A DNA stretch of 64,000 nucleotides from Pseudomonadota bacterium (GTDB lineage: Bacteria; Pseudomonadota; Alphaproteobacteria; Rhodobacterales; Rhodobacteraceae). The notes below the pieces were generated by a model, which made no database searches, was not told where the DNA came from, and worked only from the letters and a program-made list of their open reading frames with translations. Within the stretch, counting starts at the first letter, position 1; every line of letters begins with the position of its first letter. Shown one piece after another: positions 10,135 through 30,936 of this stretch. The stretch spans positions 1 to 64,000 of the forward strand of contig JAIUPC010000009.1 of the NCBI GenBank assembly GCA_020161655.1, given 5' to 3'. A program made the position numbers and the translations under genes.

Positions 10135-12552
10135 ATGACTTATTCGGACACGCACCCCCAAAACGTAAATCTACTGGTCCGCATCATTGGGATCGCCCTG
10201 CTTTTTACGGGACTTATTCTTTCCGCCGGCGGCGCCTGTCTCGCCGTTATTGGCGGGTCCTGGTATTACCTCCTTGCCGGGTTGGGCATTGCCGCTGCGG
10301 GCCATTTTCTGGCGCGAGGGCGTTTCGTCGGAGCGATGATCTATCTCGCCGTCTTCGCCCTGACCTGCATCTGGGCGCTATGGGAATCGGGCTTCGATTT
10401 CTGGCCGCTGGTGCCGCGTCTGGCGGCGCCGATCTTCATCGCGGCCATCGTGCTCCTGATTGTGCCGCTCATCCGGACAGAGCAGGGGCGCCCGGCGGAC
10501 ACGCGCCCCTTCGTGATCGGTGGCCTCGCCATGGCGCTGGTCTTCGTCGGCTATTTTGCGATGATGTTCCGCCCGCATGACATCATCCGCAACGATTTCT
10601 CCGTCGTGCCTGGGGCTGTCAGCGCAACGACGGCCGCCAGCGGCGACAACTGGTATTCCTACGGCAAGACCGGCGAAGGCACGCGTTATGCCCCCTTCGA
10701 CCAGATCAACCGCGACAACGTGAAGGGTCTTGAGGTCGCCTGGACCGCCCGCACCGGCTTCATCGCCGACCAGTCGCAGAACTATCAGGACCAGAACACG
10801 CCGCTTTATGTGGACGGGACGCTCTACCAATGCGCCGCCAACAGTGCGGTGACGGCGCTTGATGGCGTGACCGGCGAGATCAAGTGGCAGTTCGATCCCA
10901 AGGCAGAATCGCCGGCCTGGAAACGGTGCCGGACGCTCGGATATTTCGATCCCGGCCCCGGCGACCAATGCGGGCCGCGCATCCTCATGACCACCACCGA
11001 CACCCGGCTTTTTGCGCTGAAGGCTTCGGATGGGCTGCCTTGCGAAGGCTTCGGCGCGGGCGGCGTTGTCGACCTCACGACCGGCATGGCGCAGGCCACG
11101 CCGCACGCCGGCGTCGATCCGAACGAGAATGGCCCCGTCATCCCCGGATTCCTTGTCCAGACGACCGGGCCATTCGTTGCCAAGGACAAGATCATCCTCG
11201 GCGCCTGGGTCGGCGACAACGTCAGTCTTGGGGAGCCTTCGGGCGCGGTCCGCGCTTATGATGCGCTGACCGGCCAGCAGGTCTGGGCCTGGGATCTCGG
11301 CAATCCCGCGATCACCAACCTGCCGCCCGAGGGCGAGGTCTATACCAAGGGGACGCCGAACGTATGGTCGGCCATGGCTTTCGACACCGACCTGAACATG
11401 GTCTACCTGCCGCTTGGCAATGCCACGCCCGACTATTACGGCGGCAAGCGCCGCCCGTTTGACGACGAATACAATGCTGCCCTTGTCGCGCTTGATTTCA
11501 ACACCGGCAAGGAAGTCTGGCGCTTCCGCACCATGAATCACGACATCTGGGATTATGATCTGCCGTCGCAGCCGAATCTCGCCGATATTCCCGACGGCAA
11601 TGGCGGCACCGTGCCGGCCGTGATCCAGACCACAAAGCGCGGCCAGATCTTCGTGCTTGACCGGCGGAACGGCACACCCATCAAGACGGTCGAGGAAAAG
11701 CCTGCGCCAAAAGGTGACGGCACCGCCGAGGGTGAGTATTACGCCGAGACCCAGCCCTATTCGACGGGTATCGCGGCGGTCGACGCGGACCCGTTGACCG
11801 AACAACAGATGTGGGGCGCGACGCCCATCGACCAGATGCTCTGCCGCATCCTGTTCCGCACCTACCGCTACGAAGGTGATTTCACGACACAGTCGACGAC
11901 GTCGACGATCATCTATCCGGGCAACAACGGCGGCATCAACTGGGGCAGCGCGACGGTCGATCAGGAACGCAACATCCTGGTGACGGCGGACATGCGGATG
12001 CCGGTCATCGGGACGCTGATTACACGCGCCGAGTTCGAAAAGGACAACCCCGACTTCCAAAGTGATCCGCATGGTGAACTGTCACCGCAGTTCGGGCTTC
12101 CCTTTGCTCAGAAGGTGGTCAACTTCATGTCGCCGATCGGCATTCCCTGCCTTGAGCCGCCATGGGGCAGCGTCACTGCCGTCGACCTCGCCAGTGGCGA
12201 ATTGATCTGGCAGCATCCGGCGGGAACCGCGAGGGACGTGACCTTGCCCAGCCTCGGCATCCAGCCCGGCCTTGGCTTCTACGTCGGGATGCCTGCCCTT
12301 GGCGGGCCGATTTCCACCGGAGGCGGGCTGACCTTCCACGGCGGAACCCAGGACTACTACCTCCGCGCCTTCAACACCGAGACGGGGGAGCTTCTCTGGG
12401 AAGGGCGCCTGCCATCTGGCGCGCAGTCGACACCGATGAGCTATGTCGGCAAGGACGGGCGCCAGTACATCGTGACCACGGCGGGCGGGGCGCGCTACAA
12501 TCCCAACGACTGGGGCGACTATATCGTCGCCTTCGCGCTGCCCAAGAAATAG
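10135..12552 (+). CDS. gcd: membrane-bound PQQ-dependent glucose dehydrogenase
   Basis: 805 residues from the ATG at 10135 (GGGAG upstream); E. coli Gcd is 796. About five membrane helices fill residues ~10-150, then a periplasmic eight-bladed propeller begins at NWYSYGKTGEGTRYAPFDQI. PQQ-site features include NHDIWDYDLPSQP around residue 470 (the Asp matching catalytic Asp466 of E. coli), TTKRGQIFVLDR with its Lys, and WGSVTAVDL. It oxidises glucose to gluconolactone on the periplasmic face and passes electrons to ubiquinone. Quinate/shikimate dehydrogenases share this architecture, so substrate is a family-level inference. No PQQ synthesis genes are in the window. It is monocistronic. Confidence 0.9.
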   Translation: MTYSDTHPQNVNLLVRIIGIALLFTGLILSAGGACLAVIGGSWYYLLAGLGIAAAGHFLARGRFVGAMIYLAVFALTCIWALWESGFDFWPLVPRLAAPIFIAAIVLLIVPLIRTEQGRPADTRPFVIGGLAMALVFVGYFAMMFRPHDIIRNDFSVVPGAVSATTAASGDNWYSYGKTGEGTRYAPFDQINRDNVKGLEVAWTARTGFIADQSQNYQDQNTPLYVDGTLYQCAANSAVTALDGVTGEIKWQFDPKAESPAWKRCRTLGYFDPGPGDQCGPRILMTTTDTRLFALKASDGLPCEGFGAGGVVDLTTGMAQATPHAGVDPNENGPVIPGFLVQTTGPFVAKDKIILGAWVGDNVSLGEPSGAVRAYDALTGQQVWAWDLGNPAITNLPPEGEVYTKGTPNVWSAMAFDTDLNMVYLPLGNATPDYYGGKRRPFDDEYNAALVALDFNTGKEVWRFRTMNHDIWDYDLPSQPNLADIPDGNGGTVPAVIQTTKRGQIFVLDRRNGTPIKTVEEKPAPKGDGTAEGEYYAETQPYSTGIAAVDADPLTEQQMWGATPIDQMLCRILFRTYRYEGDFTTQSTTSTIIYPGNNGGINWGSATVDQERNILVTADMRMPVIGTLITRAEFEKDNPDFQSDPHGELSPQFGLPFAQKVVNFMSPIGIPCLEPPWGSVTAVDLASGELIWQHPAGTARDVTLPSLGIQPGLGFYVGMPALGGPISTGGGLTFHGGTQDYYLRAFNTETGELLWEGRLPSGAQSTPMSYVGKDGRQYIVTTAGGARYNPNDWGDYIVAFALPKK

Positions 12553-21708: not shown

Positions 21709-21785
21709 CGGAGCGTAGCGCAGCCTGGTAGCGCACCTGCTTCGGGAGCAGGGGGTCGGAGGTTCAAATCCTCTCGCTCCGACCA
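21709..21785 (+). tRNA. tRNA-Pro (anticodon CGG)
   Basis: Acceptor stem CGGAGCG pairs with CGCTCCG, D-arm TAGCGCAGCCTGGTAGCGC, anticodon stem-loop CTGC-TTCGGGA-GCAG giving CGG, T-loop TTCAAAT, discriminator A and an encoded CCA. It decodes CCG, a frequent proline codon in this GC-rich genome. Confidence 0.96.
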
Positions 21786-21872: not shown

Positions 21873-23612
21873 CTATGCGGAAGCCACCCGATGGCCGCCG
21901 CCGATGTCGCTGAGCGCCACCTTAGCGGGGCCGGCGCCCACCGGCCAGACGGGGCTGCGCACGTCGTCGGACATGCGGCTCAGCGCCGGGCGCTGGTGCG
22001 TCGGGTCGGGGATCGGCACCGCTTCGATCAGGCGCCGGGTATAGGGGTGCTGGGGATTGCCGAAGATCTGGGCGCGGCTGCCGGTTTCGACGATCTGCCC
22101 CAGATACATCACGGCGATTCGGTCGCTGATGTTCTCCACCACCGCCATGTCATGGCTGATGAAAAGATAGCTGATCCCAAGATCGGCCTTCAGTTCTGCC
22201 AGAAGGTCCAGAACCCGCGCCTGCACCGAGACGTCAAGCGCGCTGACGCTTTCATCGGCGATGATGAGGCGCGGCTCAAGCGCAAGCGCCCGGGCGATGC
22301 AGATGCGCTGGCGCTGACCGCCGCTGAACTCATGCGGATAGCGGTCGATCTGGTCGGGCGACAGGCCGACCCGGTCAAAGAGCGCACGCACCCGCTCACG
22401 CCGGCTGGCGGCATCGCCGATGCGGTGGATCACCAAGGGCTCGGCCACAAGGTCGCCGACACGCTTGCGCGGGTTCAGGGCGGCGGCCGGGTCCTGGAAC
22501 ACCATCTGCACATCACGGCGGAGCGCCGGCCCGGCGCTGAGTCCGTCTTCCGGCACAACATGACCCGCGAGGTTGATGAGGCCCTGATGCGGCACCAGCC
22601 CGGTCATGGCGCGGGCAATCGTGGACTTGCCGCAACCGGACTCGCCGACCAGCGAGAAGGTCTCGCCCATGCGGATTTCAAAGCTGACCTCTTCGACGGC
22701 ATGGACCCGGTGCGTTACCCGCCCCAGAAGCCCGCCGCGAATGTCGTAGCGGACCGAGATATCCTCGATCCGGGCGATGGTCTCAGCCGGCGCGGGGACC
22801 GGCCCCGATCCGTCGCCCATGCGCGGCACGGCGGCCAGCAGGGCCTGGGTATAGGCCTCGGCCGGGCGGGCAAAGATGTCGCGGACCGGGCCTGTTTCCA
22901 CCATGCACCCGGATTTCATCACCACCACCCGGTCGGCCATTTCCGCCACCACGCCCATGTCATGGGTGATGAGGATGATCGCGGTGCCGGTGTCGCGCTG
23001 CAGGTCGCGCAGAAGGTCCAGCACCTCGCGCTGCACCGTCACGTCAAGCGCGGTCGTCGGTTCGTCCGCGATCAGCACCTCGGGCTTCAGCGCCAGCGCC
23101 ATGGCGATCATGACCCGCTGGCGCATCCCGCCGGAAAGCTCATGCGGATATTGCCGCATCCGCGCTTCGGGCTGCGACAGGCGCACGGATTTGAGCGCGG
23201 CGAGCGCCAGCGCCTGGGCATTGGCGCCGGGATCATGGCTGCGGATCGCCTCGGACAACTGGGTGCCGATGGTCAGGACCGGGTTCAGCGAAGTCATCGG
23301 TTCCTGAAAGATCATCGCGATGCGGGCGCCGCGAATGGCCTGCATCCGGCGTTCGGAGAGCTTGGCCAGATCCCGCCCGTCAAGCCGGATGCTGCCGCCC
23401 GTCACCCGCACGCCCGGCGGCAACAGCGCCATCGCCGCCAGCGAGGTGATCGACTTGCCAGAGCCACTTTCACCGGCAATGCAGAGCGTCTCACCCGCGA
23501 AAAGATCGAAGGACAGGCCCGAGACCAGAGGCCTCGGACCCGTTTCGGTGCCGACCGACACGGTCAGGTCGGTGACTGAGAGGACCGGCCCGCGCGGCAC
23601 CGAGGCGTTCAT
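21873..23612 (-). CDS. fused double ATP-binding protein of a peptide-class ABC transporter
   Basis: 579 residues holding two complete ABC domains, a DppD-DppF (GsiA-like) fusion. Domain 1 (~8-260) has Walker A GESGSGKS, signature LSGGMRQR and Walker [10 protein letters not shown]; domain 2 (~285-550) has [17 protein letters not shown] and [12 protein letters not shown]. Note ES rather than EP after the second Walker B Asp; the catalytic Glu is retained. It would power the permease pair encoded upstream. It is the last gene of the amiC-like operon, overlapping the amidase stop/start by 4 bp (ATGA). Confidence 0.93.
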
Positions 23613-24568
23613 TCAAAGACCACCCGCGGGAAATAGAAGCTGACCACCCAGTTCGGCTGATCGACGATTTCCGAGATGCGCAGATCGCCGCAGGTCGACA
23701 CCAGCATATAGGCATCGACCGCCGCCATGCCGCGCGTGGCGCAGAGAAGGTCGACCATGCCCGCGACCGCATCGCGGGAGGCTGACATCAGGTCCGGCCC
23801 GATGCCGGTCGTGACCTCATACCCCTTGGCGTCGAGATGGCGGGTGACCGGGCCGGGCGTGGTGAAGCGCGGCAGTTTCAGCCGCGCATCCTTGACCAGA
23901 TCCAGCGTGAGGGCCACGTCCATCGGGCTTTCGATGGCGGTGCCGCAAACCTCTCCGTCGCCCTGGGCGGCATGGGTATCCCCCACGCTGAAGAGGGCAC
24001 CAGCGACCTCGACCGGCAGGTAAAGGACCGTGCCCGCCGCCAGATCGCGAATGTCGAGATTGCCACCCACCCGCCGCGGCGGGACGACCGAATGCAGGCC
24101 CGGCTCGGCCGGCGCGCAGCCGATGGTGCCGGCGAAGGGCTTCAGCGGCACCCGGCCCTGCCTGCCGTAAAGCGCATGATCCGGGTTCGCGGCGTCATAC
24201 TTCCAGATCATCAGCGCCGGATCGGTGAACTGGTCGGCCAAAAGCCCGAAGCCGGGGATATTGGCGGTCCAGCCCCAGGCGCTGCCATCCTGTTCACGGG
24301 GCGTGAAGCCGTCGATGGTGATCTTCAGCGCATCGCCGGGTTCCGCACCCTCGACATGGATCGGGCCGCTGACAGGATTGATCCTGCCGAAATCGAGCGT
24401 CGGAATCTCGGCCACGGTCGAGGACGGGCCAAGCTGGCCCGCCGAACTGTCAAGGCAGTGAAACCCGATCTTCGCGCCGGGTTCGACGCGCAGCGCCGGT
24501 GGCTGGGAGTTATCCCAGCCAAAGTGGTGCTGCGCGCCGTGAATGGTGTAGTCGCAGTTCCTGCACAT
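23609..24568 (-). CDS. acetamidase/formamidase family protein
   Basis: 319 residues of the FmdA/AmdA family. Family motifs are GPIHVEGAEPGDALKITI, WGWTANIPGFG, KPFAGTIGCAPAEPG, VPPRRVGGNLDIRDLAAGTVLYLPVEV, and GDTHAAQGDGEVCGTAIE. These cytoplasmic metal-dependent hydrolases release ammonia from formamide, acetamide or related short amides. The gene begins 1 bp after the binding-protein stop and overlaps the ATPase start, so it is embedded in the transporter operon. Together with the AmiC/AmiR-like genes upstream this makes an amide substrate likely for the transporter; the exact amide is unknown. Confidence 0.9.
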   Translation of the reverse strand: MCRNCDYTIHGAQHHFGWDNSQPPALRVEPGAKIGFHCLDSSAGQLGPSSTVAEIPTLDFGRINPVSGPIHVEGAEPGDALKITIDGFTPREQDGSAWGWTANIPGFGLLADQFTDPALMIWKYDAANPDHALYGRQGRVPLKPFAGTIGCAPAEPGLHSVVPPRRVGGNLDIRDLAAGTVLYLPVEVAGALFSVGDTHAAQGDGEVCGTAIESPMDVALTLDLVKDARLKLPRFTTPGPVTRHLDAKGYEVTTGIGPDLMSASRDAVAGMVDLLCATRGMAAVDAYMLVSTCGDLRISEIVDQPNWVVSFYFPRVVFE

Positions 24569-24569
24569 G

Positions 24570-26186
24570 TCAGTCGGTCACATAGACATAGTCATAGTTG
24601 ACCGGGATCGAGACGGGATCGACATAAAGCTTGTCATCCCCGCCCATGCGCGGCGACTTCATCGTGAAGCGCTGTTCGTTGAAGACCGGTGCCCAGGGCG
24701 CATCCTCCATCACCTTCATGTAGACATCGGACCAGGCCTTCAGCCGCGCCTCGGCCTCTTCCGGCTTGGCCATGCTGTCGGCGGCGGTGGCCAGCGTGTC
24801 GAGATCCGCGTTGCAGTATTTCGACCAGTTCCAGCCACCTTCGCCCGCACCGCCACAGCCGAGGATCGGTCCGTAGAAGTTCGACGGATCGGGGAAGTCG
24901 GCGATCCAGGCCATGCCGCCCGACCAGATCATCGGCGCGCTGCCATTGCCGCCCGCCTCGATCACATTGGCCTGGGCCAGCGACTTGATCTCGGCCTTGA
25001 TGCCGATGGCGTCCAGATCCTGCTGGATCGCCTGGGCGATGCGCGGGTTCGGGTCGGTGTTCATCACGAAAAGCTCCGTCGTGACCCCGTCCGCATAGCC
25101 CGCATCCGCCATCAGCTTCTTGGCGGCCTCGACGTCGAAGGCATAGCCCGCATAGTCGGCGGTATAGCCCGGCATCGAGGGCGGCAGCGGCTGGCTGGCC
25201 GGCACCGCGCGATTGTTGATCATCTGGACGATGCGGTCCTTGTTCAACGCCATGTTGACGGCGCGGCGCACCTCGGCCTTGTCGAAGGGCGCGGTGTTGA
25301 CGTTCATTGTGATATAGCCGGTATGGAGCTGCCCGCCCTCGACCACGCGCGCGGCCTGCTCGGCGTCGGCCATCACTTCCTGGAACTTCGCCGGCGGAAT
25401 GCCGTCGCCGGGGACGTCAACCTCGCCATTCTGCAGGCGGAGGAGTGCGACCACGGGTTCCTGGCCGATCTCGAAGGTGATCTTGTCCAGATAGGGCACG
25501 CCCGGGCGCCAGTTGTCGGCGTTCTTTTCGAAGGTCAGGCTTTGCCCGATGGTCCAGTCAGCGAGCTTGAAAGAACCGGTGCCGACCGGATGTTTGCCGA
25601 AATCGGCGCCAAATTCCTCGACCACCTCTTTCGGCACCACGGCGGAAAAGTTCAGCGCCATGACATGGAGGAAGGTCGCGTCCGGCCGCTTGAGGTCGAT
25701 CTTCACCGTCAGGGGGTCGACGACGGTGACGCCCGCGAGGCCCTTGGCCGCACCCGAGGCCGCCTCGTCATACCCCGCAATCGAGGCGAAGAAGCCCGCA
25801 CCAGGTGATTGCGTTGCCGGGTCGGTGACGCGGTCGAGCGAGTATTTCACGTCATCGGCCGTCATCTCGCGGCCGTTGTGGAACTTCACGCCGGCCCGCA
25901 GCTTGAAGGTATAGGACAGGCCGTCCGCGCTCATCTCATAGCTTTCGGCGAGGCCGGGGCGCAGTTCGGTCGTCCCCGGTGCGTAGTCCATCAGCCCGTC
26001 GAAGAGCGATTTGATCATGGACCAGTTCTGCCAGTCATAGCCGATGGCCGGGTCGAGCGTGGCCACGTCATCCTTGTAGGTGATGACGATCGCGCCGCCG
26101 GGCTTGGCGTTCGGGTCAAGTTCCTCGGCCATGACGGGGAATGCCAGCGTCAGCGCGAGGGCTGTGGAAGTCAGCCAGGTTTTCAT
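24570..26186 (-). CDS. extracellular solute-binding protein (peptide/nickel class, SBP_bac_5)
   Basis: 538 residues with a Sec signal peptide (MKTWLTSTALALTLAFPVMA, cut before EELDP). Cluster C binding-protein signatures: IVITYKDDVATLDPAIGYDW near the N-terminus, LAESYEMSADGLSYTFKLRAGVKFHNG, and VRRAVNMALNKDRIV. The mature protein would capture ligand in the periplasm for the two permeases upstream. Although the fold is that of dipeptide/oligopeptide binders, the operon context suggests a small amide or amidated peptide. It lies 36 bp after the DppB-like permease gene. Confidence 0.92.
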   Translation of the reverse strand: MKTWLTSTALALTLAFPVMAEELDPNAKPGGAIVITYKDDVATLDPAIGYDWQNWSMIKSLFDGLMDYAPGTTELRPGLAESYEMSADGLSYTFKLRAGVKFHNGREMTADDVKYSLDRVTDPATQSPGAGFFASIAGYDEAASGAAKGLAGVTVVDPLTVKIDLKRPDATFLHVMALNFSAVVPKEVVEEFGADFGKHPVGTGSFKLADWTIGQSLTFEKNADNWRPGVPYLDKITFEIGQEPVVALLRLQNGEVDVPGDGIPPAKFQEVMADAEQAARVVEGGQLHTGYITMNVNTAPFDKAEVRRAVNMALNKDRIVQMINNRAVPASQPLPPSMPGYTADYAGYAFDVEAAKKLMADAGYADGVTTELFVMNTDPNPRIAQAIQQDLDAIGIKAEIKSLAQANVIEAGGNGSAPMIWSGGMAWIADFPDPSNFYGPILGCGGAGEGGWNWSKYCNADLDTLATAADSMAKPEEAEARLKAWSDVYMKVMEDAPWAPVFNEQRFTMKSPRMGGDDKLYVDPVSIPVNYDYVYVTD

Positions 26187-26221
26187 CTTTCTTTCCTCTC
26201 CTCTCCTGTTGTTTTTCTTGG

Positions 26222-27142
26222 TCAGCGCAGCTTGATGCGCGGGTCGATCATGGGGGCGATGAGGTCGGCCAGAAGGTTGCCAAGGACGATGGCAATGGCG
26301 GACACCAGGGTCACCCCCATGATGATGGGAATGTCGACGCGCTGGATCGCCTGCCAGGCCAGCTGGCCGATGCCGGGCCAGCCGAACACGCTTTCGACCA
26401 CGACCACCCCGCCCATGAAGATGCCTATATCCATGCCGATCATGGCGACGATGGGCAGGATCGCATTCGGCATCGCATGACGCAGGATGACCCTGAGCCG
26501 GCCAAGGCCCTTGGCCCGCGCGGTGCGGATGTAATCGGCGCGGAGCACATCCAGCATGGATGACCGCATCATCCGGCTGTACCAGCCCGCGCCCATGATC
26601 CCCAAGGTGACCGAGGGCAGCACCAGATGCGCGAACGTGCCGTAGCCGCCGATGGGGAACCAGCCGAGCTTGACCGCGAAGACGTAGAGCAAAAGCAGCG
26701 CCACCACGAATTGCGGGGCCGAGACGGCGACGAAGGACCCGACCATCAGCCCGGTATCAATGGGTCGCCCGCGCTTCAGCGCGGCAATGACGCCGAGCGT
26801 CAGGCCGAAGATCAGCTCGCAGGTGATGGCGCCGACCATCAGCAACAGTGTGGCCGGCAGACGCGCCGCGATGAGCGTCGCGACATCGGTCTTCTGCAGG
26901 TAGCTACGGCCCATGTCGCCTTGCAGAAGGCCGCTGAGATAGGTCCAGTACTGGACCCAGACCGGCTGATCGAGGCCAAGCTGGCGGCGGATGTTCTCGA
27001 CCACCTCGGGTGTCGCCGAACGGCCGGCGATCTGGCGCACCGGATCGGCCGGCAGCACGTAGAGAAGGCCGAAGGTGATGATGGTGATCCCCAGAAGGAT
27101 CAGCGCGGACTGGACGAGGCGGCGCAGGAGATAGGCGGCCAT
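26222..27142 (-). CDS. ABC transporter permease, DppB-like
   Basis: 306 residues with about six membrane helices and the DppB/OppB N-terminus (MAAYLLRRLVQSALILLGITIITFGLLYVLPADP). The EAA loop carries YIRTARAKGLGRLRVILRHAMPNAILP, where the ATPase docks. It forms the inner-membrane channel with the DppC-like partner, whose stop overlaps this ATG. Confidence 0.93.
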   Translation of the reverse strand: MAAYLLRRLVQSALILLGITIITFGLLYVLPADPVRQIAGRSATPEVVENIRRQLGLDQPVWVQYWTYLSGLLQGDMGRSYLQKTDVATLIAARLPATLLLMVGAITCELIFGLTLGVIAALKRGRPIDTGLMVGSFVAVSAPQFVVALLLLYVFAVKLGWFPIGGYGTFAHLVLPSVTLGIMGAGWYSRMMRSSMLDVLRADYIRTARAKGLGRLRVILRHAMPNAILPIVAMIGMDIGIFMGGVVVVESVFGWPGIGQLAWQAIQRVDIPIIMGVTLVSAIAIVLGNLLADLIAPMIDPRIKLR

Positions 27143-28035
27143 CAGCGCTGCCCCCGCTGTGTCGGGTCCATCACTTCGCGCAGCGCGTCGCCGACGAGGT
27201 TGAAGGCCAGGGCCAGGACCAGGATCGCAGCGCCGGGAATGAAAACCAGCCAGGGCGCGGACTGAAAGTAGGTCTGGTTCTCGAAGATGATGTTGCCCCA
27301 GCTCGCCGTGGGTGGCTGCACGCCGATGCCGAGATAGGAAAGCGTGGCCTCCAGAAGCACGGTGGTGGAAATCCCGAGCGTGGCCCAGACGATGATCGTC
27401 GGCCAGAGATGCGGCAGAAGGTGATGCCAGAGGATGCGCAGGCTCGATGCGCCAAGGGTGCGTTCGGCGGCGATGAAGTCGCGTTCAGCCAGCGCCGTGG
27501 TTTCGGTATAGACGATACGGGCGGTCTGGACCCAGTTCACCAGCGCAATCACCAGCGCCACGATCCAGAGCGAGGGCCGAAAGATTGCGGCAAGGCAGAT
27601 GGCGAGCAAAAGCGCCGGAAAGGCCATCATCAGATCGGTGAAGCGCATGAGGACCGTTCCGACCCAGCCCCGAAGCCAGCCGGCGGTCAGCCCGACGAGC
27701 GTGCCGACGCCCACCGCGATGCCATTGGCGATGATGCCGATCAGAAGCGACGTGCGTGCGCCGTAGAGAAGGCGCGAATAAAGGTCGCGGCCAAGAAGAT
27801 CGGTGCCAAGAAGCCAGGGCCCGCCCGGCGGCATCGGCGCGCCTTCAAGGGTGAGGCCGTCGAAATTCTGCTGGTCCGGCGGATAGGTCGCAAGCCAGGG
27901 CGCCGCGATGGCGGCACCGACGACCAGCGCGATCAGCACCAGCCCCAGAAGCGCCAATGGCCGGCGCAGAAGCCGCGTCAGCGCGCCGCGCTCGGCAGGT
28001 GCGCTCGCGGCTATCACAAAGGGGGCGCCGCTCAT
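27142..28035 (-). CDS. ABC transporter permease, DppC-like
   Basis: 297 residues with the DppC architecture: a first helix after a polar N-terminus (LLRRPLALLGLVLIALVVGAAIAAPWLA), the conserved GTDLLGRDLYSRLLYGARTSL segment, four more helices, and the EAA loop FIAAERTLGASSLRILWHHLLPH. It pairs with the DppB-like permease. Its start overlaps the ANTAR regulator stop (ATGA at 28032-28035), so regulator and transporter genes are translationally linked. Confidence 0.93.
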   Translation of the reverse strand: MSGAPFVIAASAPAERGALTRLLRRPLALLGLVLIALVVGAAIAAPWLATYPPDQQNFDGLTLEGAPMPPGGPWLLGTDLLGRDLYSRLLYGARTSLLIGIIANGIAVGVGTLVGLTAGWLRGWVGTVLMRFTDLMMAFPALLLAICLAAIFRPSLWIVALVIALVNWVQTARIVYTETTALAERDFIAAERTLGASSLRILWHHLLPHLWPTIIVWATLGISTTVLLEATLSYLGIGVQPPTASWGNIIFENQTYFQSAPWLVFIPGAAILVLALAFNLVGDALREVMDPTQRGQR

Positions 28036-28628
28036 TGCCCGGCCCCCTTGCGGGTGGGGCCGGGGAACTTGGCCAGCACTCGTTCGGCGGCGGCCTCGAA
28101 GCTTTCCTGCCGGTCGGTGGCAAGGCGACGCAGCCGGGCAAAGGCTTCGTCATCGCTCAAGCCCTGGGCCACCAGTGCCATCACCGCCCGGACCACGGTT
28201 TCGCGCCCCGCCAGCCGGTCGCGCAACTGGTCGATCTCGGCGGCCATGCGGTGCTGCGCGTCAAAGCCCGCCCGCGCGATCAGCAGGGCGGAATAGACGC
28301 CGCTGTCCCCCACCGGCTTCAGGAGTTGCGCATGTGCGCCCCGCGCCAGAGACCATTCGATGCGGCCCGGTGCCTCGGACCCGATCAGCCCGATCAGCGG
28401 CATCGGGCTGGCGCCGTCGCCCCAGGGAAACTGCCCGTCAAAGCCCATGTCGACATCGAAGAAGAGGAAATCCGCGCCAAGGTCGGGCGGAAGCTCCGGC
28501 CAATAGGCCTCGGTCATCAACCCGATGGCGGTCAGTTGCCGCGTCAGCGCGGCCACGGTGGCATGGGGGCGGTGCAGGATCGCGGCGCGCGCGCCAGCGA
28601 GATCAAGGATGCGCAAGCCCCGTTTCAT
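28032..28628 (-). CDS. AmiR-like ANTAR-domain transcription antiterminator
   Basis: 198 residues, matching AmiR of Pseudomonas aeruginosa (196). Residues ~1-120 form a pseudo-receiver domain (ILDLAGARAAIL, FLFFDVDMGF, LIGLIGSE), a helical linker follows (AAEIDQLRDRLAGRE), and the C-terminal ~50 residues are an ANTAR domain (VVRAVMALVAQGLSDDEAFARLRRLATDRQ). ANTAR proteins bind paired RNA hairpins and stop premature termination. AmiR is normally held silent by AmiC until an amide binds AmiC. The ATG at 28628 overlaps the amiC-like stop (ATGA). Its probable target is the leader hairpin at 29718-29753. Confidence 0.88.
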   Translation of the reverse strand: MKRGLRILDLAGARAAILHRPHATVAALTRQLTAIGLMTEAYWPELPPDLGADFLFFDVDMGFDGQFPWGDGASPMPLIGLIGSEAPGRIEWSLARGAHAQLLKPVGDSGVYSALLIARAGFDAQHRMAAEIDQLRDRLAGRETVVRAVMALVAQGLSDDEAFARLRRLATDRQESFEAAAERVLAKFPGPTRKGAGQ

Positions 28629-29683
28629 CTGATGACCCGGAAGGAGGGCCGGGCTTCGGGCAGGCGGTCCGGCCGGGTCAGATAGGGGTCGCCCATCACC
28701 GCCGGGCGGCGGTGGAGAACGTGGAAAGCGCCGCCGCAAACCTCGGCGATCAGCACCGGCAGCGTGGTGTGGTGGGTCGCGGGGTCGATCGGCCCGGCCC
28801 CGGCATCGCGCGCCAGAAGTTCCGCCAAGGGCAGGTCTTCGCCGCCCGGATGGCGGTGAAAGAGCCGCGCCATTTCCATGATGGCGGCATGGGCGGCGGC
28901 CTCATGCGAATTGCCGAACCCGCCCGACTGCCCCGGGTCGCGGAAATAGGGGCCCGCCGCCACCAGCCCTTCCGAGGTTGCGCCCATCAGCGGCAGTTCG
29001 CTTTCCGTGAGGTTGCAAGAAAGGATCGGCAGGCCCGGCAGCCGCGCCGCCATCTCGGCGACGAAGGCATATTGCGACGGGCCGATCAGCGAGTTCAGCA
29101 CGTAATCGGGCCGCAGGACGGCGATTTCATCGACCATGCCGGTCACGTCGACCGCGCCGAGGGGCAGGTGCCTTTCGCCGGTGATCTCGCCGCCGGCGGT
29201 GGTGATGACCTCGCGCGCAAGGCGGTTGATCTCCCATCCCCAGATGTAGTTCGAGGCCAGAAGATGCACCCGCCGCCCATGGCGCGGCATCGCCCAATCG
29301 AGAAGCGGCAAGAGGTGCTGGTTCGGGCAGGCATGCATGTAGACGACGTGGTCCGAAGCCTCGAAGCCTTCGTAAGGCAGCGCGTACCAGAGCGTCGCGC
29401 CAGCGCGTTCAAGGACCGGCAGCACCTCTTTCCGGCTCCAGGAGGTGACGCAGCCGAGCACATGCCGGGCGCGGCTTGCCGTCAGGATATCCTGGCAAAG
29501 CGGCGCATAAAGGTCGATCTTCCCCTCGGGATCGCGTTCCACCGGCACCAGCCGCACCGAGATGTCGGGATCGGCATTGACCGCATCAATCGCGGCGTAG
29601 GCGCCCATCAGGTTTGACCGCGCAATCGCCTGATACCCGCCGGAGCGCGATTGCAGGATGCCGATTTCGACTGTCCGCTTCAT
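28625..29683 (-). CDS. AmiC-like amide sensor / negative regulator (periplasmic-binding fold, cytoplasmic)
   Basis: 352 residues beginning MKRTVEIGILQSRSGGYQAIA, a type I periplasmic-binding fold (Peripla_BP_5/AmiC family). It has no signal peptide, as expected for AmiC, which works in the cytoplasm by sequestering AmiR. Family-like segments: VLGCVTSWSRKEVLPVLE, LASNYIWGWEINR, and VLNSLIGPSQYAFVAEMAA. The ATG at 29683 was chosen because AGGGA sits 8 nt upstream; earlier in-frame ATGs fall on or ahead of that site. It is the first gene of the seven-gene amide operon. The recognised ligand cannot be read from sequence. Confidence 0.87.
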   Translation of the reverse strand: MKRTVEIGILQSRSGGYQAIARSNLMGAYAAIDAVNADPDISVRLVPVERDPEGKIDLYAPLCQDILTASRARHVLGCVTSWSRKEVLPVLERAGATLWYALPYEGFEASDHVVYMHACPNQHLLPLLDWAMPRHGRRVHLLASNYIWGWEINRLAREVITTAGGEITGERHLPLGAVDVTGMVDEIAVLRPDYVLNSLIGPSQYAFVAEMAARLPGLPILSCNLTESELPLMGATSEGLVAAGPYFRDPGQSGGFGNSHEAAAHAAIMEMARLFHRHPGGEDLPLAELLARDAGAGPIDPATHHTTLPVLIAEVCGGAFHVLHRRPAVMGDPYLTRPDRLPEARPSFRVIR

Positions 29684-29713
29684 ATCCATTTCCCTGTGCG
29701 ATCCTATGTGAAC

Positions 29714-29753
29714 GACAAAGGCCCCTCCCTGCGAAAAGCAGATGAGGGGCCTT
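29714..29753 (-). terminator. leader terminator/attenuator hairpin upstream of the amiC-like gene
   Basis: On the minus strand AAGGCCCCTC pairs with GAGGGGCCTT (10 bp, 29744-29753 with 29718-29727), with a smaller CTGC/GCAG helix at its apex, followed by a short T-rich run (TTTGTCGTT). It lies ~35 bp before the amiC-like ATG and after a possible promoter (TTGACC at 29808-29813, weak -10 at 29785-29790), where an ANTAR-controlled attenuator would be expected. Two smaller dyads precede it (near 29776-29790 and 29764-29774). I could not find a clean pair of hexaloop hairpins. Confidence 0.6.
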
Positions 29754-29886
29754 GATGCCGTGCGATGATCGCTATGTGTCCGCCACACTGCGTCGGGATT
29801 CGCCTTCGGTCAAGCGCGGAGTCGCATCGGCCCGAACCTGACCGCCGGAATGAACCGATCGGCGGGTGGCGTCGGCCCCGCCGCCG

Positions 29887-30936
29887 TCAGGCTGGAATCA
29901 CCAGCAAGTCGCGGCCGGAAAAGCTCAGCTCCACTTCGGTTCCCATCACCGGCGGCGGCGTGTCGGGGGCGTTGAACGTGTCGAAGTCAACGACCATGCC
30001 GCCAAGATCGGCGCGAAGCCGGATCACCGAGCCAAGGAAATGCACCTCGGCGATGCGCCCGGTGACAACCGTTTCGTTCCCCGGCTGGCGGCCAAGGGCG
30101 ATGGCCTCGGGCCGGGCGGCAAGCGTTACCTTGCCCTTGGGCAGCGGCTTGCCGAGGTCGACGGGGGTTCCGGCGATCCGGGCGATGCCCTTTTCGGCGT
30201 CGATGACCTCGGCCTCCATCAGGTTGAGGGTGCCGACGAAGCCGGCGACAAAGCGGGTCGCGGGCTTGTTGTAGATCTCGAAGGGCGCGCCAACCTGATC
30301 GGCGATACCCTGATGCATGACGACGATCCGGTCAGAGATCGACAGTGCCTCTTCCTGGTCATGGGTCACGAAGATCGTGGTGATGCCAAGCTTCTGCTGG
30401 ATCGCCCGGATTTCTGTCCTGAGCGAGACGCGGACCTTGGCGTCGAGGGCGGAGAGCGGCTCATCAAGAAGCAGGACGCGGGGTTTCGGCGCCAGCGCGC
30501 GGGCCAGCGCCACGCGCTGCTGCTGGCCACCGGAAAGCTGGAACGGATAGCGCCCGCCAAGATCGGGCAGGCCGATGAGCGCCAGCATTTCGGCCACGCG
30601 GGCCTCGCGGCCGGCCTTGGGGATGCCGGCGACCTTCAGCCCGAAGCCCACGTTGTCGGCCACCGTCAGGTTCGGGAAAAGCGCATAGGCCTGAAACATC
30701 ATGCCGACGTTGCGCCGGCTGGTCTTGAGGCCGATGACATCCTGCCCGTCGATCTGGATCGAGCCGGCGGTCGGCGTCTCGAACCCCGCGACCATGCGCA
30801 GGACGGTCGTCTTGCCGCAGCCCGAAGGGCCGAGGAGCGAGATGAATTCCCCCTTGGCGACGGAGAGATTGAAATCCTTCACCACGCGATTGGCGCCGAA
30901 GGATTTTTCCAGGTGGGAGATTTCGAGGAAGCTCAT
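29887..30936 (-). CDS. PotA/FbpC-like ABC transporter ATP-binding protein
   Basis: 349 residues: ABC domain with Walker A GPSGCGKTT, Q-loop MMFQAYALFPNLTV, signature LSGGQQQR, Walker B VLLLDEPLSALD and switch His in VTHDQEEAL. A TOBE regulatory domain from ~280 (VTLAARPEAIALG) marks the spermidine/putrescine/iron/maltose type. It energises the two permeases upstream. It overlaps the preceding permease stop (ATGA) and closes the four-gene operon ~200 bp before the amiC-like gene. Confidence 0.93.
   Translation of the reverse strand: MSFLEISHLEKSFGANRVVKDFNLSVAKGEFISLLGPSGCGKTTVLRMVAGFETPTAGSIQIDGQDVIGLKTSRRNVGMMFQAYALFPNLTVADNVGFGLKVAGIPKAGREARVAEMLALIGLPDLGGRYPFQLSGGQQQRVALARALAPKPRVLLLDEPLSALDAKVRVSLRTEIRAIQQKLGITTIFVTHDQEEALSISDRIVVMHQGIADQVGAPFEIYNKPATRFVAGFVGTLNLMEAEVIDAEKGIARIAGTPVDLGKPLPKGKVTLAARPEAIALGRQPGNETVVTGRIAEVHFLGSVIRLRADLGGMVVDFDTFNAPDTPPPVMGTEVELSFSGRDLLVIPA

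Follow-up and report, generated by a model that had tools for sequence, protein, structure and literature searches.

A run of seven minus-strand genes on a Rhodobacteraceae contig (JAIUPC010000009.1 of assembly GCA_020161655.1) is likely to form an operon for the uptake and cleavage of amino-acid amides, controlled by AmiC/AmiR antitermination through a leader RNA in which a hexaloop hairpin (P2) and an intrinsic terminator share an arm. The window, i.e. the whole stretch of 64,000 nucleotides that was analysed, carries these consecutive genes at 21873-29689. A first-pass annotation of this DNA had proposed that an AmiC/AmiR pair is wired to a peptide-class ATP-binding cassette (ABC) transporter and an FmdA-type amidase. 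Gene content, synteny, predicted folds and the terminator/hexaloop leader support this proposal; the regulatory leader itself, in the ~200 bases upstream of the sensor gene, was absent from that annotation.

All seven genes are present by open reading frame reading of the window, and each product exceeds its Pfam cut-off in a profile search, so that coordinates and Pfam agree with the seven-gene run and gene types named earlier. The AmiC-like amide sensor (Peripla_BP_5/6; 28625-29689, with an ATG at 29689 or 29683) is taken as cytoplasmic, no signal peptide being seen by eye. Its gene adjoins that of an AmiR-like antiterminator (AmiR_N plus ANTAR; 28032-28628), for which Pfam and the structure model give a pseudo-receiver, a long helix and an ANTAR domain. 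Then follow the genes of a DppC/OppC-type permease (BPD_transp_1; 27142-28035), a DppB/OppB-type permease (BPD_transp_1; 26222-27142), an SBP_bac_5 periplasmic binding protein (24570-26186), an FmdA_AmdA amidase of 319 aa (PF03069; 23609-24568) and a fused two-domain DppD-DppF-type ATPase (ABC_tran twice plus oligo_HPY; 21873-23612). From sensor to ATPase, the genes are joined by overlaps of 4, 4 and 1 bases, gaps of 35 and 1 bases, and an overlap of 4 bases.

A hexaloop hairpin and a terminator share an arm in the operon leader

The elements of the window leader all lie on the minus strand. A -35-like TTGACC (29808-29813), presumed to belong to the operon promoter, is located 54 bases upstream of P2. 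A P1-like hairpin (GCGATCATCGC, 29762-29772) stands 2 bases upstream of P2 and is not an A1/G4 hexaloop, i.e. one with A at loop position 1 and G at position 4. P2 itself, GGC-ATCAAG-GCC (29748-29759), is the candidate antiterminator. Its 3' arm is part of the 5' arm of an intrinsic terminator (AAGGCCCCTC..GAGGGGCCTTT, 29717-29753; weak U tract TTTGTCGTT), and the two structures upstream of the operon are mutually exclusive at the sequence level. The fold of the window leader into the terminator has an energy of -38 kcal/mol (z -7.05), and its stem carries a U-A pair where G-C is usual.

Leaders, defined as the 200 bases upstream of amiC, were compared at 47 loci: the window, 42 loci with an AmiR of at least 46% identity (including L064, which has a different transporter) and four with the same operon and an AmiR of 36-41%. 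The pattern GGC-ANNNNN-GCC occurs in 46 of the 47 leaders, against a mean of 2.2 and a maximum of 7 in dinucleotide shuffles. In 46 of 47, the 3' GCC of P2 also opens an inverted repeat that runs into T-rich sequence, and the combination of P2 with a U-tailed terminator is found in 46 of 47, compared with 0.41 on average and at most 3 in shuffles. The leader without the pattern, L097, has GCC-AAATGA-GGC, a swapped stem that by eye continues into a terminator whose T run is long. Twelve leaders were fetched after the pattern had been noted, and 11 of these carry P2. Because some leaders come from close relatives (window/L033, L049/L106, L046/L112 and L050/L105), the 46 leaders are not 46 independent cases. 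Upstream, TTGAC is found 43-63 bases from P2 in 34 of 46 leaders.

Alignment A1 was made of 44 of the 46 P2-bearing leaders, excluding L043 and L095 with their odd or long terminators. In its seven-pair terminator stem, 96.0% of cells are paired and 18 cells are doubly changed, compared with 5.0 after shuffling; none of 500 shuffles reached as high a value, and slid controls gave at most 11. No Rfam family matched the leader in the window stretch or in seven leader loci.

The seven genes recur in the same order

AmiR matches were obtained in 61 of 295 family genomes (E <= 1e-5), with at least 52% identity in 30. The first-pass annotation had left the synteny to be searched for, and the seven genes do co-occur in order in 27 of these 30 genomes, the window included (in L055, counted here, the ATPase gene is cut by the contig end). 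Since the same order recurs in many genomes, the arrangement is not due to chance. As for the three exceptions, the G216 contig stops after the permeases, G091 is a 3.2 kb contig not fetched with neighbours, and in G037 the AmiC, AmiR and FmdA genes are followed by a different transporter. The family search gave 67 AmiR places in all; neighbouring genes were retrieved for 40 of them, made up of 28 of the 30 close places and 12 weaker ones, and the window is the 29th close place. L034 was dropped (same contig as L038), L113 was unused (no AmiR match), and L076, with the same genes in broken-looking pieces and an AmiR at 31%, was moved to set B, the 16 other AmiC/AmiR loci.

The binding protein was matched in 32 of 295 family genomes (E <= 1e-180), of which 31 are AmiR-positive; the sole AmiR-negative carrier, G022, is a fragmented assembly. 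Class-wide, it occurs in 10 of 385 genomes (E <= 1e-120), five of them with AmiR. The other five loci have the transporter and amidase with no AmiR match next to them. The transporter-amidase unit therefore occurs without AmiC/AmiR, and from this distribution the pair looks like a controller added to the unit. In the seven-gene loci and in these five alike, the amidase gene sits between those of the binding protein and the ATPase.

Between the window and L033, the sensor gene has 22 non-synonymous and 72 synonymous codon changes and the amiR gene 4 and 35, respectively, i.e. the sensor diverges faster than AmiR.

The leader element follows AmiC/AmiR

Model R1 of the element was built from 44 rows, the window among them. 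In its own genome R1 found one site, at 29711-29763 (E 4e-5); the next match, at E 8, was set aside as a likely ordinary terminator. Across 198 family genomes, at least 19 have a site at E <= 0.01, and this count is a lower bound because the family-wide search used stricter filters and missed the own-genome site. The sites fall at 21 places, 18 of which are amiC leaders by position. The remaining three lie between the FmdA and ATPase genes (G037), before a permease gene (G044) and after a solute symporter gene (G066:C13); the last was set aside as a likely ordinary terminator.

Set B gave an R1 match at 14 of 16 loci at E <= 1 and at 9 of 16 at E <= 0.05; several of these matches lie elsewhere than immediately upstream of amiC. 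None of the five transporter loci lacking AmiC/AmiR has a match at its leader, the only match among them being a partial one elsewhere in L132 (E 0.86). With matches at other AmiC/AmiR loci and none at these five leaders, the element follows the regulator; as judged from these searches, it tracks AmiC/AmiR and neither the transporter nor the upstream gene.

Three further observations concern individual loci. At L064 (G037), the second hexaloop-terminator between the FmdA and ATPase genes occupies 10780-10848 on the minus strand, which suggests a switch inside the operon. At L159 (G044), a leader of the same kind (~12120-12181, plus strand) precedes a cytosine/purine/allantoin-type permease gene in a neighbourhood with AmiC-like and AmiR genes and BPD_transp_2 permeases. 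At two other AmiC/AmiR loci, L099 and L075, the hexaloops begin with G instead of A (GATCAG and GACACG, respectively).

The hexaloop departs from the described ANTAR target

ANTAR targets are described, in PMC3369931 and PMC8164766, as two hexaloop hairpins with A1 and G4 in each. According to PMC8934654, G4 is the only base-specific contact of EutV, and a single hexaloop is proposed as the minimal site. Position 4 of the P2 loop is C in 34, A in 8, T in 2 and G in 2 of 46 leaders, and G4 is found in none of the 38 leaders whose AmiR is at least 53% identical. The best hairpin within 25 bases upstream of P2 is an A1/G4 hexaloop in only one of 46. The presence of a clear hairpin at most 5 bases upstream of P2 varies with the distance to TTGAC: at 53-65 bases, 19 of 23 leaders have one, and at 42-52 bases, 1 of 11 (Fisher p 7e-5, the hairpin threshold having been chosen after viewing the data). 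Of the 12 leaders that lack TTGAC, 11 have such a hairpin. This distribution would fit P1 being an optional insert. A role in recognition was also considered for the purine at loop position 5 and rejected: in the fold of the alignment, positions 5 and 6 pair with the first tail bases, so this purine may only serve the terminator.

The genome has one other ANTAR gene, which provided an internal control. Scanning 18 kb around it for neighbouring A1/G4 hexaloops listed 11 pairs, and the only ones with both stems of at least 5 pairs lie in the gap between a NasS-like gene and the next NMT1-type gene. This NasT-locus leader (G000:C6 ~68130-68190; L135 6131-6191, minus strand) has the loops ACAGTC and AAGGCC, each on a stem of 5 pairs, the two hairpins being separated by 3 bases. 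Like the operon leader, it adjoins an ANTAR gene of the same genome and is followed by a U run; unlike it, it has the textbook A1/G4 pair. A third A1/G4 hexaloop, AATGGC, stands just upstream of this pair, making three in a row.

The AlphaFold model of AmiR (ortholog alignment) has a mean predicted local distance difference test (pLDDT) score of 89.6; its best match in the Protein Data Bank (PDB) is 1qo0, with RNA-bound EutV (6ww6) in third place. Sequence alignments were used to locate the EutV contact positions. Among the 47 AmiRs, Arg142 and Arg168 are kept in 47 and Met172 in 45, and Lys149 is replaced by Val in 44. Tyr164 is found in 34 (Phe in 8, Leu in 5) and Arg175 in 34 (Gln in 12). 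Trp occupies position 174 in 36 of 47, compared with 0 of 16 in set B, and the 149-160 segment is shorter in 42 of 47 (by one residue in 40, by two in 2), again versus 0 of 16. In these alignments, the loop change goes with the two ANTAR-domain changes, Trp174 and the shorter segment. Trp174 is an imperfect tracker of the loop, as the window, L033, L044, L061 and L103 have neither Trp nor G4. Val149 alone does not explain the loop, because set B has Val there in 11 of 16, yet G4 in 4 of 8 P2 loops.

It is a real possibility, which we hold only tentatively, that the ANTAR target of these AmiRs has been re-coded. It would consist of a single hexaloop, mostly ANN(C/A)RN, which lies near the 5' end of the message, is devoid of G4 and in some leaders has no second hairpin, and in some relatives (L064, L159) it would serve an amide regulon.

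Asp58, Asp60 and Pro105 never vary in the receiver part of 45 aligned clade AmiRs, and Lys104 hardly does, a pattern like that of receiver phospho-sites; Pseudomonas AmiR has no Asp aligned at clade position 58.

A probable amino-acid-amide substrate

A structure model of the sensor had been called for at first pass. The AlphaFold model (ortholog alignment; mean pLDDT 93.8) shows the AmiC fold, and its best PDB matches, 8tg1, 1pea, 1qnl and 1qo0, are urea- or amide-binding. In an alignment of 46 clade sensors (L051 and L076 excluded), the equivalents of AmiC Ser85, Tyr104 and Tyr150 are invariant. Three other positions differ from Pseudomonas aeruginosa AmiC and set B: position 83 is changed from Tyr to Val, Ile or Thr in 46 of 46, position 106 is Val in 24, Cys in 10, Leu in 6, Ala in 3 and Thr in 3, and position 121 is His in 38 of 46. 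Positions 83, 85 and 150 presumably line the pocket, and in the stretch aligned the acetamide (1pea) and butyramide (1qnl) entries differ at position 106.

The binding protein matches PDB entry 8upi with E 1.1e-276 and 398 of 518 identical residues (77%). We take 8upi to be MeAmi_SBP of a Mesorhizobium, which reportedly binds L-amino-acid amides (Frkic et al., Biochemistry, 2024). About 610 such proteins are said to lie beside FmdA_AmdA amidases in the same work, and the transporter-amidase unit itself was reportedly described in 2024 already. Gene content here agrees with a MeAmi_SBP-type system, taken as an SBP_bac_5 protein close to 8upi encoded with an FmdA_AmdA amidase and a Dpp-type transporter. 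Given 77% identity to 8upi with its reported ligand, the transporter and its substrate are probably known ones, and by this analogy the operon probably imports and hydrolyses L-amino-acid amides. The substrate, left open at first among formamide, acetamide, an amidated peptide and a carbamoyl compound, is narrowed accordingly.

No PF03069 protein other than the amidase was found in the genome. The closest relatives of the amidase with a solved structure are 5ubu (acetamidase/formamidase) and 2ii1 (acetamidase). It had been annotated as an acetamidase/formamidase; the FmdA_AmdA family assignment holds and a strict formamidase does not, the score against NCBIfam formamidase FmdA (NF045496) being 120.7 bits with an equivalog cut-off of 500. 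Among named models, those of Gsi, Dpp, Opp, Nik and Yej score best with the transporter parts. The binding protein stays below the GsiB, DppA and NikA cut-offs (DppA NF043070: 204.2 bits, equivalog cut-off 1005).

Proposed mechanism and alternative explanations

In the proposed mechanism, the Dpp-type ABC transporter would import small primary amides, most likely L-amino-acid amides, which the FmdA_AmdA amidase would hydrolyse to amino acid and ammonia. We infer a transcription start ~90 bases upstream of amiC; by default, transcription would stop at the intrinsic terminator ~30 bases before amiC. Without amide, AmiR would be held by AmiC. Binding of an amide by AmiC would free AmiR, which would then dimerise and bind the P2 hexaloop as the RNA exits the polymerase. 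Bound P2 would keep its 3' arm out of the terminator, and all seven genes could be transcribed.

It is unlikely that the substrate and inducer are instead formamide or a short aliphatic amide, on the model of Pseudomonas ami. The name of the FmdA_AmdA family and the invariance of the Ser85, Tyr104 and Tyr150 equivalents would fit them, but the binding protein resembles a reported L-amino-acid-amide binder at 77% identity, sensor positions 83, 106 and 121 are unlike P. aeruginosa AmiC and set B, and the formamidase cut-off is unreached. A dipeptide or nickel importer, with amidase and sensor as bystanders, is extremely improbable: the named models closest to the transporter parts would suggest it, but the GsiB, DppA and NikA cut-offs are all unreached, and the amidase gene keeps its place between binding protein and ATPase even at the five loci without AmiC/AmiR.

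Several points weigh against antitermination through P2. The first 35 leaders were the source of the pattern GGCANNNNNGCC, and its count among them holds by construction; the A that opens the loop and the invariance of the P2 stem are likewise built into the search pattern, and this stem shows no covariation in alignment A1. The number of terminator pairs with a double change (4) was reached by 27 of 500 shuffles, and P2 counts become 46 of 48 if L076, which has no model match, is included. The own-genome R1 search scored 150 of 9131 first-look candidates. The leader lacks the canonical dual A1/G4 hexaloop. In the window itself, the U tract is weak and a terminator scan gives no more than a shifted stem of 7 pairs; the operon promoter shows no evident -10 box, and a consensus promoter scan of the leader found no promoter. 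Moreover, the window AmiR has Thr at EutV Met172, Gln at Arg175 and Phe at Tyr164, and Met172, essential for RNA binding in EutV according to PMC8934654, is missing in only 2 of 47 AmiRs, those of the window and its near twin L033. These residues, with the absence of Trp174 and the weak U tract, would suit a strain whose AmiR has lost RNA binding, with expression through weak termination and a switch that works only in relatives. We regard such a loss as rather improbable, as AmiR codon changes relative to L033 are mostly silent (35 to 4), the terminator is retained with its compensatory U-A pair, and R1 finds the window site at E 4e-5, though with the window among its 44 rows. Much less probable still is a hairpin that merely terminates an upstream PotA-like operon, with amiC on its own promoter and no attenuation. 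A PotA-like gene does lie upstream on the same strand, ending at 29887, but the element precedes amiC with varied upstream neighbours; among the fetched upstream stretches of operon loci, only those of L033 and L059 gave a match to a same-strand PotA-like gene. Furthermore, termination would not need the hexaloop half, and the element is found at other AmiC/AmiR loci as well.

Relation to known systems

The P. aeruginosa ami operon has the gene order amiEBCRS. The window operon resembles it in having an AmiC-fold sensor beside an AmiR-fold ANTAR protein and a hairpin-plus-terminator leader upstream of an ammonia-releasing amidase operon. However, it has an FmdA_AmdA amidase (PF03069) in place of nitrilase-fold AmiE and a Dpp-type ABC importer in place of AmiS, with the sensor genes first. 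With MeAmi_SBP systems (8upi), the operon shares a close binding protein and, as reported, a transporter-amidase unit; to that work, which reportedly covered ligand and structure, the AmiC/AmiR pair and the RNA leader are an addition.

The amiE leader has two A1/G4 hexaloops according to PMC3369931, and the window leader is without them. Compared with the canonical ANTAR targets of nasF, eutP and amiE, as given in PMC3369931 and PMC8164766, the present leaders likewise have an A-first hexaloop with a C-G closing pair, a 3' arm common to the terminator and a link to nitrogen metabolism. They differ at loop position 4, where C or A prevails, and at position 5, usually a purine able to pair with the U tract. 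In addition, no more than one hexaloop is conserved, and a clear P1 is missing from 10 of the 11 leaders whose promoter distance is short. Within titles and abstracts, with subscription papers mostly outside the search and the ~400 predicted targets in the supplement of PMC3369931 (a number given in PMC8164766) not covered, searches aimed at AmiC/AmiR with such transporters and at single-hexaloop targets found nothing that describes this operon or leader. The parts are of known kinds, and what is new is the wiring and the altered leader.

The operon unites a sensor, an importer and an enzyme for amino-acid amides, a nitrogen source that has received little study, and its short RNA element can be used for finding such operons in raw genomes. 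It also offers a natural case of an RNA-binding domain with an apparently changed target code, for which the textbook ANTAR leader in the same genome serves as internal control.

Just downstream of the operon end, a tRNA-Pro (cgg) gene lies at 21709-21785 on the plus strand, convergent with the operon.

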